This document shows, one piece after another, positions 13,164 through 21,493 of a stretch of 64,000 bases of DNA (within the stretch, counting starts at the first letter, position 1; each line of letters opens with the position of its first letter). Where the stretch lies: the NCBI GenBank assembly GCA_025360645.1, contig JANYBT010000056.1, forward strand, positions 1-64,000. Reading direction: 5' to 3'. The notes beneath the pieces were generated by a model. The model had not been told where the DNA came from and ran no database searches. It saw only the letters and a program-made list of their open reading frames with translations. The translations under genes and the position numbers were made by a program. This DNA comes from Acidobacteriaceae bacterium. GTDB taxonomy: Bacteria > Acidobacteriota > Terriglobia > Terriglobales > Acidobacteriaceae.

Positions 13164-13179
13164 CGGCCCCCGTGTTGCA
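13164..13179 (+). promoter_or_regulatory. Sigma-54-type promoter before the SpoA-fliO-fliP unit
   Basis: CGGCCCCCGTGTTGCA keeps GG-N10-GC spacing and an exact TTGCA -12 element. Its last A is 24 bases before ATG 13203. A start site about 12 bases downstream of the GC would leave a very short leader that still contains the GGGGCAGG-like ribosome-binding site. Confidence 0.55.
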
Positions 13180-13202
13180 TGAGTTACGGGGCAGGCACTG
13201 AG

Positions 13203-13484
13203 ATGGCCACCTCACAAATGGCGCCGCGACCCGCTCCGGAGACTTCCGCTGTGGCCGACGTATGGGCCCATTTGCAGGATGTGCCCTGCGAGTTGACGGT
13301 GGAGATTCCGGCGCCGCAATTCAAGCTGGCGGACTGGCTGGGGCTGGGTCCGGGCTCGATTGTAAACACGCACTGGGCGGTGGGCCGGGAGATCCCGTTG
13401 CAAGTGAACGGGGTAGTGGTGGGATGGAGCGAATTTGACGTTTCCGCAGGGCATTTGGCGGTGCGGCTGACCGAGCTGGCGTGA
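13203..13484 (+). CDS. Short SpoA-domain motor switch protein (FliN/FliM C-terminal type)
   Basis: 93-residue protein consisting of a Pro/Ala-rich leader and one SpoA domain (about residues 22-93). Visible features are DVPCELTVEI, a LGLGPGSIV turn and an ending HLAVRLTELA. SpoA domains form the lower C-ring of the motor. A second, more canonical FliN lies at 19418, and no full FliM is present, so this protein may supply the FliM C-terminal role or be a FliN paralogue. ATG 13203 is chosen over 13179 because of GGGGCAGG upstream and the promoter spacing. Confidence 0.75.
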   Translation: MATSQMAPRPAPETSAVADVWAHLQDVPCELTVEIPAPQFKLADWLGLGPGSIVNTHWAVGREIPLQVNGVVVGWSEFDVSAGHLAVRLTELA

Positions 13485-18629: not shown

Positions 18630-19421
18630 ATGACGACCGAGATGCTGGAAGCGTATGCCGGAGTGCAGGACGAAGGGGAGCGGGAACGCATTCTGCTGGA
18701 GCAATTGCCGCAGGTGAAGTACATCGCGCGGCGGGTGCATGCGAGGCTGCCGCGGCACGTCCCGCTGGAAGACCTGGTGCATGCCGGAGTGGTGGGCCTG
18801 ATTGATGCGCTGAACAAGTTTGATCCCGGCAAGCATGTGCAGTTTCCGTCCTACGCCAAGTTCCGCATCAAGGGCGCGATTCTGGACAGTCTGCGGGACC
18901 TGGACTGGAGTCCGCGGGAACTGCGGCGAAAGGGGCGGCGGGTGGAGGAAGCGTATCAACGCCTGTCGCAGCGCCTGGGACAGGTGCCCACCGAACCGGA
19001 GTTGGCGGCGGAGTTGGGAATGGAACTGGGGCAGTTGCAGGGGTTGCTGGGCGAGCTGGATGGGCTGGAGTTGGGCAGCCTGCACTTTGAGTCGCCGCGC
19101 GACGGCAAAGAGGAAGACCTGAGCGAGTCTCTGCCTGCGGCGCCAGAGGACACGCCCTACTTCCAGTGCCTGCGGGCGGAGATCAAGGAAGTGCTGGCTC
19201 GGGCCATCCGAGAACTGCCGGAAAAAGAGCAACAGGTGTTGTCGTTGTACTACTACGAGGAGCTGACCATGAAGGAAGTGGGGGCCGCATTGGGCATTGG
19301 AGAGTCGCGAGTATCGCAAATCCATTCTCTGGCCATGCTGCAATTGCGGGCGCGCTTGCGGCTCAAGTTGCCCGAAGCGGGCCAAGCGCTGCGGGCCCAG
19401 GCAGCGGGAGCGGGACGATGA
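18630..19421 (+). CDS. fliA: Flagellar sigma factor FliA (sigma-28)
   Basis: 263-residue FliA/WhiG-type sigma factor. Region 2 contains PLEDLVHAGVVGLIDALNKF, then a FPSYAKFRIKGAILDSLRDL core for -10 recognition. Region 3 has VPTEPELAAELGM, and region 4 has LPEKEQQVLSLYYYEELTMK followed by a GIGESRVSQI helix-turn-helix. It should read the TAAA/GCCGAT promoters found before flgM and fliC and be held by FlgM until hook completion. Its last bases overlap the fliN start (ATGA). Confidence 0.96.
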   Translation: MTTEMLEAYAGVQDEGERERILLEQLPQVKYIARRVHARLPRHVPLEDLVHAGVVGLIDALNKFDPGKHVQFPSYAKFRIKGAILDSLRDLDWSPRELRRKGRRVEEAYQRLSQRLGQVPTEPELAAELGMELGQLQGLLGELDGLELGSLHFESPRDGKEEDLSESLPAAPEDTPYFQCLRAEIKEVLARAIRELPEKEQQVLSLYYYEELTMKEVGAALGIGESRVSQIHSLAMLQLRARLRLKLPEAGQALRAQAAGAGR

Positions 19422-19666
19422 GCGAAATGGATTCTTTTCTGGACGTGGAGTTGGCGGTGAGTCTGCGCTTTGGCGGACGCCGGATGCGGCTGGGAGAAGT
19501 GCTGGAGCTGGGCGCGGGCGCGGTGGTGGAACTGGACCGCGCGGTTGAGGCCCCGGTGGACTTGCTGCTGGAGGGCCGCGTGATTGCGCGCGGCGAAGTA
19601 GTGGTGCTGGACGGGAATTATGGGTTGCGGATCACCGAAGTGGTGGCAGCGGAGCCGGGCCGATGA
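19418..19666 (+). CDS. fliN: Flagellar motor switch protein FliN
   Basis: 82-residue protein, essentially one canonical SpoA domain: VELAVSLRFGGRRMRLGEVL, GAGAVVELDR, then GRVIARGEVVVLDGNYGLRI-TEVV. It forms the base of the C-ring. ATG 19418 overlaps the fliA stop, and the stop overlaps the next gene, so it is translated within a coupled chain. The usual N-terminal extension of FliN is almost absent. Confidence 0.9.
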   Translation: MSEMDSFLDVELAVSLRFGGRRMRLGEVLELGAGAVVELDRAVEAPVDLLLEGRVIARGEVVVLDGNYGLRITEVVAAEPGR

Positions 19667-20511
19667 GGCTGGGAGAAATTTTGCGGCAAGTTTCGCCGGC
19701 GCTGGTCCCGCCCTGGTTCGGGCTGCGCTGCGCCGATTCCGCCTGCGTGCGGGGAGGGGGTTGGGCAGGTCGGAGGAGTCGAGGTTTAAAAATGGAGGGC
19801 GACTGGTATTGCAGCGGGGAGTGTTTGGAAGCGGCGGTGCGGCAACGCTTATCGCGGCTGCAGCCTTGGACACCATTGCCGCGGTCCTACCGGGTGCCGC
19901 TCGGTTTGCTGCTGGTGGCGCGCGGACAGATCAGTTATCAGCAAGTGAGGCAAGGGCTGGAGGCGCAACGCCGGGCAGGCCGGGGACGGTTGGGCGAGTG
20001 GATGCAGGAACTGGGTCTGGCCCGGGAGGAAGAAGTGACGGCGGCGCTGGCGGCGCAGTGGGGATGTCCGGTCTTTCCTCTGGCTGGCAACCGGATTCCG
20101 GAGTGCGCGTCCTTGTTGCCGCTGGCTTTGATGGAGCGCTATGGGGTGTTGCCGGTGCATTATGCGGCTGGCCGCCGGGACTTGTATCTGGGGTGTGCGG
20201 AGCGGAGGGAACACTCGTTGTTCTATGCCGTGGAGCGGATGCTGGGGTGCCGCACTCATGCGGCGGTGGTGGGCGGAAAAGTCATGAAGGAAATTCTGGA
20301 GCGGCTGCATCAGGTCGCCCGGCCACGCGAACTGGTGTTCGGCAACGTGCGCGACCCGGCGGAACGGGCCCGCATCACGCGCAGTTATGCGCAACGGGTG
20401 GGTGCGGAAGAGGTGGCGTTGACCCAGGCGGCAGAACTGGTGTGGGTGCGGCTGAGTTCGGCGCAGGGGCCTACCGATTTGCTGTTCGGCAGCGAAGGCG
20501 TACGGGGATGA
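19663..20511 (+). CDS. Zinc-ribbon plus MshEN-type (GspE N-terminal) protein
   Basis: 282-residue soluble protein of unassigned role. The N-terminal part has Cys23, Cys28, Cys50 and Cys54, spaced like a zinc ribbon. Residues 77-138 hold two back-to-back GspE-N/MshEN motifs: PLGLLLVARGQISYQQVRQG ending in Gln102, and RLGEWMQELGLAREEEVTAA ending in Gln132. MshEN domains bind cyclic di-GMP in several ATPases. The C-terminal 140 residues resemble GspE-N family proteins, but no ATPase follows. Coupled by ATGA to fliN, it is a candidate c-di-GMP input to the motor or switch. Ligand binding is inferred only. Confidence 0.6.
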   Translation: MRLGEILRQVSPALVPPWFGLRCADSACVRGGGWAGRRSRGLKMEGDWYCSGECLEAAVRQRLSRLQPWTPLPRSYRVPLGLLLVARGQISYQQVRQGLEAQRRAGRGRLGEWMQELGLAREEEVTAALAAQWGCPVFPLAGNRIPECASLLPLALMERYGVLPVHYAAGRRDLYLGCAERREHSLFYAVERMLGCRTHAAVVGGKVMKEILERLHQVARPRELVFGNVRDPAERARITRSYAQRVGAEEVALTQAAELVWVRLSSAQGPTDLLFGSEGVRG

Positions 20512-20603
20512 GGGACTCAAGCCCGGAGCCGGACCGGTCGATCTATGCAGTGCAACTTGCCTTGAGGAAGTTGGGCCTGTTCTTCCGCGCAGGCTGGAAC
20601 AAT

Positions 20604-20634
20604 TTTGCCGGGCGGCTTCGGCCTGCCCGGCAAA
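20604..20634 (+). other. Strong hairpin with UUCG tetraloop upstream of flgF
   Basis: A ten-pair outer stem (20604-20613 with 20625-20634), a single bulged T at 20624 and a GGC/GCC inner stem close a cUUCGg tetraloop at 20617-20620. A second stem, GTTGC 20643-20647 with GCAAC 20662-20666, and a terminator follow. The arrangement suggests a structured RNA 3' end or a regulatory leader. It matches no riboswitch family I can recognise by eye. Confidence 0.6.
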
Positions 20635-20668
20635 GTCTTCCCGTTGCTTTCCGCAGCGCAGGCAACTT

Positions 20669-20689
20669 CCGGCTTAGGTCGGTTTTTTT
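20669..20689 (+). terminator. Intrinsic terminator between the MshEN gene and flgF
   Basis: The stem CCGGC-TTAG-GTCGG (one G-U pair) is followed directly by seven T residues. It ends the long fliN-side transcript, and the flgF unit has its own promoter-like element 34 bases downstream. Confidence 0.65.
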
Positions 20690-20722
20690 GCTCCCTTCGG
20701 TGACCATTCTTCCTCCTCTCTG

Positions 20723-20738
20723 TGGCGGTCCGCTTGCA
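20723..20738 (+). promoter_or_regulatory. Sigma-54-type promoter before flgF
   Basis: TGGCGGTCCGCTTGCA matches the -24 TGGC and -12 TTGCA elements with exact GG-N10-GC spacing. The last A is 24 bases before ATG 20762. It lies after a terminator, consistent with independent transcription of the flgF-flgG-flgA-flgH-flgI-flgJ unit by sigma-54 polymerase and the FlrC-like activator. Confidence 0.6.
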
Positions 20739-20761
20739 TGGCTGTTTCCCGGAGGATGTTC

Positions 20762-21493
20762 ATGAATACCGGATCCTACGCAGCCTGTGCGGGATGGAAG
20801 GCGCAGGCCCAGGCGCTGGAAATAGTGGCGCACAATCTGGCCAATCTGAATACCAGCGGCTACCGGGCGCAGCAGGCGACTTTCCGCTCGCTGGTGGTGG
20901 CGCGCACCGGCGGTTTGAGCGCGATGAACCGGGCAGCCAACCAGTTTGGCGTGTTGAGCGGTGCGCGCCTGGACCTCTCGGCCGGCAACCTGGAAAAGAC
21001 CGGCAACCCGCTCGATCTGGCGATTGAGGGGAGCGGCTATTTCGTCCTGCAAACCCCGCGCGGTACGGTTTACAGCCGCAACGGCGGCTTTCAGATTTCG
21101 CGAGAGGGGAAGCTGGTGAATGGAAGCGGAGACCAGGTGATGGGCGAGCAGGGTCCGATTTCGGTCCCTTCGGGCGAAGTGACGATCAGCGGGAATGGGA
21201 TGTTGTCGGTGAACGGCGCGGTGGCGGGCAAGTTGAAGCTGGTGGACTTCGCGGCGGAATCCAGCCTGGCCGCCGCGGGCGATGCCGGGTTTTCGGCTGC
21301 GGCCGGAGACGAGCGGGTGGCGGCGCAGGCAGCGGTGTTCCAGGGCATGCGGGAATCGTCGAACGTGAATGCCATCTCCGCAGTATCGGAATTGATTGCG
21401 GTGCAGCGCCAGGCCGAGATGCTACAGCGCGCTCTCTCGATTTTTCACAGTGAATTTGACCGGGTGGCGGCGGCGGACTTGCCGCGGGTGTAG
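20762..21493 (+). CDS. flgF: Flagellar proximal rod protein FlgF
   Basis: 243-residue rod protein of the FlgF/FlgG family. The N-terminal axial motif is VAHNLANLNTSGYRAQQATF. The central part has LDLAIEGSGYFVLQTPRGTV-YSRNGGF. The C-terminal end reads SNVNAISAVSELIAVQRQAE. ATG 20762 is chosen because GGAGG at 20751-20755 lies 6 bases upstream and because of the promoter spacing. flgG follows after 21 bases. Confidence 0.93.
   Translation: MNTGSYAACAGWKAQAQALEIVAHNLANLNTSGYRAQQATFRSLVVARTGGLSAMNRAANQFGVLSGARLDLSAGNLEKTGNPLDLAIEGSGYFVLQTPRGTVYSRNGGFQISREGKLVNGSGDQVMGEQGPISVPSGEVTISGNGMLSVNGAVAGKLKLVDFAAESSLAAAGDAGFSAAAGDERVAAQAAVFQGMRESSNVNAISAVSELIAVQRQAEMLQRALSIFHSEFDRVAAADLPRV

Follow-up and report, generated by a model that had tools for sequence, protein, structure and literature searches.

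A protein of 282 amino acids encoded in an acidobacterial flagellar gene cluster, here termed X, is best explained as a cytosolic receptor for cyclic di-GMP (c-di-GMP) that in many Acidobacteriota serves the flagellum specifically, a reading to which we give somewhat better than even chances. The gene lies at 19663..20511 on the forward strand of the window, which is the whole 64-kb stretch of DNA analysed and part of a 96-kb acidobacterial contig. The open reading frame, its conserved family and the AF2 model together define a product composed of a four-Cys ribbon, an MshEN/GSPII domain and a beta-alpha-beta-beta-beta module.

Domain architecture, predicted fold and origin

The N-terminal ribbon (residues 23-54; 19729..19824, + strand) has the pattern C23-x4-C28 ... 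C50-x3-C54 and was delimited by Cys conservation. C23, C28, C50 and C54 are kept in 48, 48, 49 and 49 of 49 X family members, respectively, and all four are invariant across 21 divergent members. The two Cys pairs kept in 48-49 of 49 members bear out the four-Cys ribbon of the preliminary description, which is a probable metal site. Comparison of the ribbon with named zinc families gave no match.

The MshEN/GSPII domain of X spans residues 77-216. It begins with two motifs, each a predicted c-di-GMP half-site: motif I (residues 79-102, PLGLLLVARGQISYQQVRQGLEAQ; 19897..19968, +), recognized from the consensus given in PMC5013675, and motif II (residues 109-132, RLGEWMQELGLAREEEVTAALAAQ; 19987..20058, +), located by sequence comparison. 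The C-terminal subdomain of MshEN (residues 133-216; 20059..20310, +) was delimited by PF05157 and by a structure match to 5htl that extends up to residue 216. It is followed by the beta-alpha-beta-beta-beta module seen in AF2 models (residues 219-282; 20317..20508, +), which carries an invariant W261-x-R263, both W261 and R263 being present in 49/49 members.

Taken alone, the window protein scores below the cut-offs of both PF05157 (16.7 bits; cut-off 23.1) and NF053729 (33.7; cut-off 38), and the MshEN assignment is therefore carried by the family evidence. NF053729 matches 29 of 30 X family members, and the family profile finds MshE (5htl) with an E value of 1.5e-16, PilF with 1.6e-35 and PilB with 9e-22. 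The AF2 model built from 30 homologues has a mean pLDDT of 90.5. Its best match among solved structures is MshE with bound c-di-GMP (5htl; Z 12.4, rmsd 3.0, 135 residues), followed by the N-terminal domain of Xanthomonas PilB (Z 12.0) and by c-di-GMP-bound PilF-GSPIIB (8pdk; Z 11.6); Foldseek also returns the c-di-GMP complexes of MshE and PilF-GSPIIB, and unrelated structures drop to Z 4.4. The MshEN-type domain first proposed for X is thus upheld by the profile match to 5htl and by the Z score of the model, and the model, as a prediction, shows the MshEN fold with its two subdomains.

The proposal that X has no ATPase also stands, as no match to T2SSE was found, no RecA-type ATPase domain follows MshEN, and the 282-aa frame ends about 65 residues past that domain. 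Searches of X for PilZ, PilZN and PilZNR gave no match at E <= 1, and a search for REC gave none. In its layout X resembles the N-terminal regulatory part of a PilB/MshE-type ATPase, with a ribbon gained and the motor lost, and an origin from such ATPases is possible. The tree of MshEN domains, which has long branches, agrees equally with X having arisen once, separately from the ATPases, and with other histories. A relationship between the C-terminal module and the ATPase N2 domain is no more than suggestive: the highest-ranking ATPase windows cover SDIH, at a probability of 8%, which is not significant. The N2 domain is absent among the fold-search matches of the module; those obtained are common beta-alpha-beta-beta-beta lookalikes (such as glyoxalase folds; Z up to 6.7) and were not taken as relatives.

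The homology of the MshEN domain to the N-terminus of PilB, and the weak alignment of the C-terminal module with the start of the N2 domain, would also suit a truncated, decaying type IV pilus or type II secretion ATPase that has come to lie in the cluster by chance. This is hardly credible, because the architecture and synteny of X are kept over many families and its Cys, Trp and Arg residues are invariant, which argues against a decaying gene.

Flagellar neighbourhood and distribution

The start codon of X shares the tetranucleotide ATGA with the stop codon of fliN (19418..19666, +), and fliN starts in the same manner on the stop of fliA (sigma-28; 18630..19421, +). The upstream gene was identified as fliN by TIGR02480 (E 6e-26, above the cut-off); its product, at 82 aa, is a short FliN. 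The frame at 19663-20511 therefore opens on the ATGA that ends fliN, just as the overlap had been described. Downstream, flgF (20738..21493, +) is a neighbour kept in most X loci. We also note that fliN frames in relatives often encode about 250-300 aa. A second protein with a FliN/FliM C-domain (101 aa) is encoded at 13179-13484 of the window, upstream of fliP, and many relatives have such a second switch-like gene too; the fliM-like match (G000:C113:13101-13304) is not in the flagellar cluster but on a different contig.

The gap of 226 nt between X and flgF (20512-20737) is predicted to fold more stably than its shuffles (z -2.3) and contains a terminator-like hairpin with a T run at 20669-20682, the number of such sites being not above chance. 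The gap is possibly an attenuator; no Rfam match was found in it or near X.

Co-occurrence of X with fliN in related genomes had been put forward as a check and was run. In a set of 101 genomes, made up of that of the window and 100 relatives, full-length X is present in 32 of 41 genomes with fliN versus none of 60 without (p = 1.7e-18). In a phylum-wide sample, where 6 candidates per genome were scored and absences of X are provisional, except for some verified by reading the loci, X is found in 55 of 113 fliN genomes versus 1 of 283 others. In that sole genome (G303), X is at a contig end with flgF downstream. The association extends to gene order. When the surroundings of 88 distinct X genes were read, G340 being excluded from this count, 87 proved to have fliN upstream on the same strand, and the order fliA-fliN-X-flgF is kept in family f1 as well as in 8 distant ones. 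G027 and G044 each possess two flagellar clusters, and in both genomes an X stands beside each fliN. X therefore travels with the flagellar cluster, and a flagellar function is very likely.

The distance between the two genes differs with lineage. A start of X at -16..+60 nt from the fliN stop (67/87) is typical of close relatives, whereas X is separated from fliN by 120-2036 nt and at least one gene, usually one or two small ones, in 16 loci of eight distant families; 4 are undetermined. The small protein encoded between fliN and X in the distant families (L066-L081) begins with a membrane anchor and carries an HTH-like repeat at its C-terminus, and one such protein matches DUF2802 weakly (E 4.7e-6, below the cut-off). 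The window has no small membrane-anchored gene between fliN and X.

This arrangement bears on which part of the flagellum X would serve. Zinc ribbons frequently bind nucleic acid or protein. X may be a c-di-GMP receptor for flagellar assembly or protein export rather than rotation, as a checkpoint for the type III export gate or for rod and hook genes, or may control expression by way of its ribbon. Since X is located between the switch gene fliN and the rod gene flgF, rod assembly is as near as the C-ring. However, the short fliN-X distances place fliN closer to X than its other neighbours, and a role in assembly, export or expression is considered unlikely.

X was found in the cultured species Edaphobacter modestus, Granulicella rosea and Acidipila rosea when a one-genus alignment was used for the scan; named genomes scanned with the single window protein gave no matches. 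A Paracoccus match over 60 residues (L163; E 1e-4) was not counted as X. Many flagellated acidobacteria (f4, f6, f18, f24, f30, f32 and others) showed no X at their fliN locus, and neither did two flagellated genomes of X's own family, one of them G333. A three-part X with a canonical RLG motif I occurs in G340 (L085 4246-5070, - strand) outside the flagellar cluster, in the order secD-secF-(gene)-X-tatD. Because of this locus and the flagellated genomes without X, we regard X as neither essential for flagella nor strictly bound to the cluster.

In G333, which belongs to a genus otherwise carrying X, an HDOD-domain gene (L118 3787-4473, -; Pfam E 7.5e-14) fills the fliN-flgF interval in place of X. 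HDOD genes also occur after fliN in G084 and, in several distant families, before X in the stretch that separates it from fliN; the fliN-flgF interval seems to serve as a slot for genes of motility signalling.

The predicted c-di-GMP site

The twelve positions that contact c-di-GMP in MshE have a mean entropy of 0.75 bits across 49 X proteins, versus 2.22 bits elsewhere in residues 77-133; of 20,000 position sets drawn at random, none had an entropy as low. The core ligand positions compared are Gly11/40, Gln32/61, Leu25/29/54/58 and Arg38 (MshE numbering). The equivalents of Gly11, Gly40 and Gln61 are invariant in the 49 proteins, Gln32 is retained as Q in 41/49, and 46/49 have R or K for Arg38. 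The 21 divergent members keep both Gly and both Gln without exception. The window protein has G81, G111, Q102, Q132, R109, L99 and L129 in its core, with V95 and V125 instead of Leu. Motif I and motif II are separated by a spacer of 6 residues in the window protein, 5 in MshE and 5-6 across the X family.

One departure concerns Arg9 of MshE, whose equivalent is Pro in 33 of 49 members, including the window protein (P79); 13 members have R or K. Since the distant families that were aligned also show R or K here, Pro looks derived. Arg77, two residues before the Arg9 equivalent, is kept in 38/49. In MshE, changes of Arg9 reportedly lowered the affinity by about fivefold at most (PMC5013675). The window protein fits the published relaxed motif in neither half, agreement being confined to six core positions. 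Position 1 of motif I in the relaxed motif permits R, K, P or N, and the deviations of the window protein are at other, hydrophobic positions. As judged from these residues, c-di-GMP is likely to be bound by most X members.

X may alternatively be a structural or assembly partner of FliN/FliM, with the MshEN fold serving as a protein-binding module and no relevant sensing of c-di-GMP. The loss of the motif-I Arg in most of the family is in keeping with such a role, as is a protein encoded beside fliN (G042:C19; not among the 49), in which the Cys ribbon and the place are kept and the ligand site is lost. There is also a precedent in GSPII-A of Thermus thermophilus PilF, which keeps the fold and does not bind c-di-GMP (PMC12002112); the fold alone is therefore no guarantee of binding. 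Nevertheless, conservation within the domain is highest at the side chains that would contact the ligand, which would not be expected of a scaffold, and we regard a role independent of c-di-GMP as improbable. G042 has two copies of X (L165 3976-4893 and L164 4116-5327): one is the degenerate copy beside fliN, and the other is located directly after fliA and has a largely intact site, with no fliN detected.

Proposed function and relation to known receptors

In the favoured reading of X as a flagellar receptor, c-di-GMP would bind between the two 24-residue motifs in the four-helix MshEN_N half, as it does in MshE. Binding would alter how the ribbon, the C-terminal module or both are presented to the cytoplasmic face of the motor, where the target may be the C-ring (FliN/FliM) or the overlying export gate. 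At high c-di-GMP, flagellar function would then be slowed, biased or blocked. The C-ring as the direct target, for which only gene position speaks, is plausible at rather less than even chances. More tentatively still, X may act as a c-di-GMP-run brake, clutch or switch bias of the C-ring, derived from the regulatory domain of a secretion ATPase and independent of PilZ/YcgR and Cle, and may form the main link between c-di-GMP and the flagellum in much of the Acidobacteriota.

The genome of the window encodes two GGDEF and six PilZ domains, and the c-di-GMP signal is therefore likely to be present. No PilZN was found in this genome. Among the 100 relatives, PilZNR turned up in a single genome, one that lacks fliN, and it is absent from the X-bearing close relatives. 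With GGDEF and PilZ present and the N-domains of YcgR absent, X could fill the role of flagellar c-di-GMP receptor; the six PilZ proteins are alternative candidates for it. The suggestion in the preliminary description that X could be a new c-di-GMP receptor acting at the C-ring, as YcgR does elsewhere, is accordingly retained in part: the flagellar link is strongly supported, c-di-GMP binding is made likely by the conservation of the contact residues, and the absence of PilZNR from the X-bearing close relatives is compatible with a YcgR-like role, while Pro at the Arg9 position of the window protein and the placement at the C-ring from gene position alone weaken it.

X resembles MshE of Vibrio cholerae (5htl) and PilF-GSPIIB of T. 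thermophilus (8pdk) in fold (Z 12.4 and 11.6), in the two 24-residue motifs, and in both Gly, both Gln and Arg38. Unlike these proteins, it has no ATPase, carries the N-terminal four-Cys ribbon, mostly has Pro at Arg9, has a spacer of 5-6 residues and is encoded in a flagellar operon. NfrB of Escherichia coli likewise has MshEN in a non-ATPase and corresponds to the NCBIfam profile that best matches X as a whole protein (E 3.5e-10; 29/30 members), whereas it is a non-flagellar membrane glycosyltransferase. NfrB is activated by c-di-GMP, which it binds with a Kd of about 1 uM (PMC8669469). MshEN also occurs outside pilus and secretion ATPases in PA3740 of Pseudomonas aeruginosa and in fusions to CheA, CheX and REC, with a link to motility or chemotaxis (PMC5013675). 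These proteins have other architectures than X, and their description contains neither a ribbon nor a linkage to fliN. YcgR, the PilZ flagellar brake, and Cle, a CheY-like protein of Caulobacter, are c-di-GMP receptors working at the motor (PMC12713396, PMC5677366). They are similar to X in its proposed role and differ from it in having unrelated domains.

MshEN is thus a known, widespread c-di-GMP module, found also on CheA, CheX, REC and glycosyltransferase domains, and what is new in X is the architecture and the context in which this receptor domain is placed. The openly accessible papers that were searched contain no description of a ribbon-MshEN protein encoded in a flagellar operon or of a fliN-linked MshEN protein.

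Flagellar control by c-di-GMP has been worked out in few lineages, by way of PilZ and CheY-like receptors. If the proposed function is true, the motor has become linked to c-di-GMP on more than one independent occasion, here with another receptor fold and in a major soil phylum, and an unannotated gene found throughout these genomes would gain a function. X may tie swimming to the swim-or-settle decision in soil Acidobacteriota that are without the usual flagellar brake protein.
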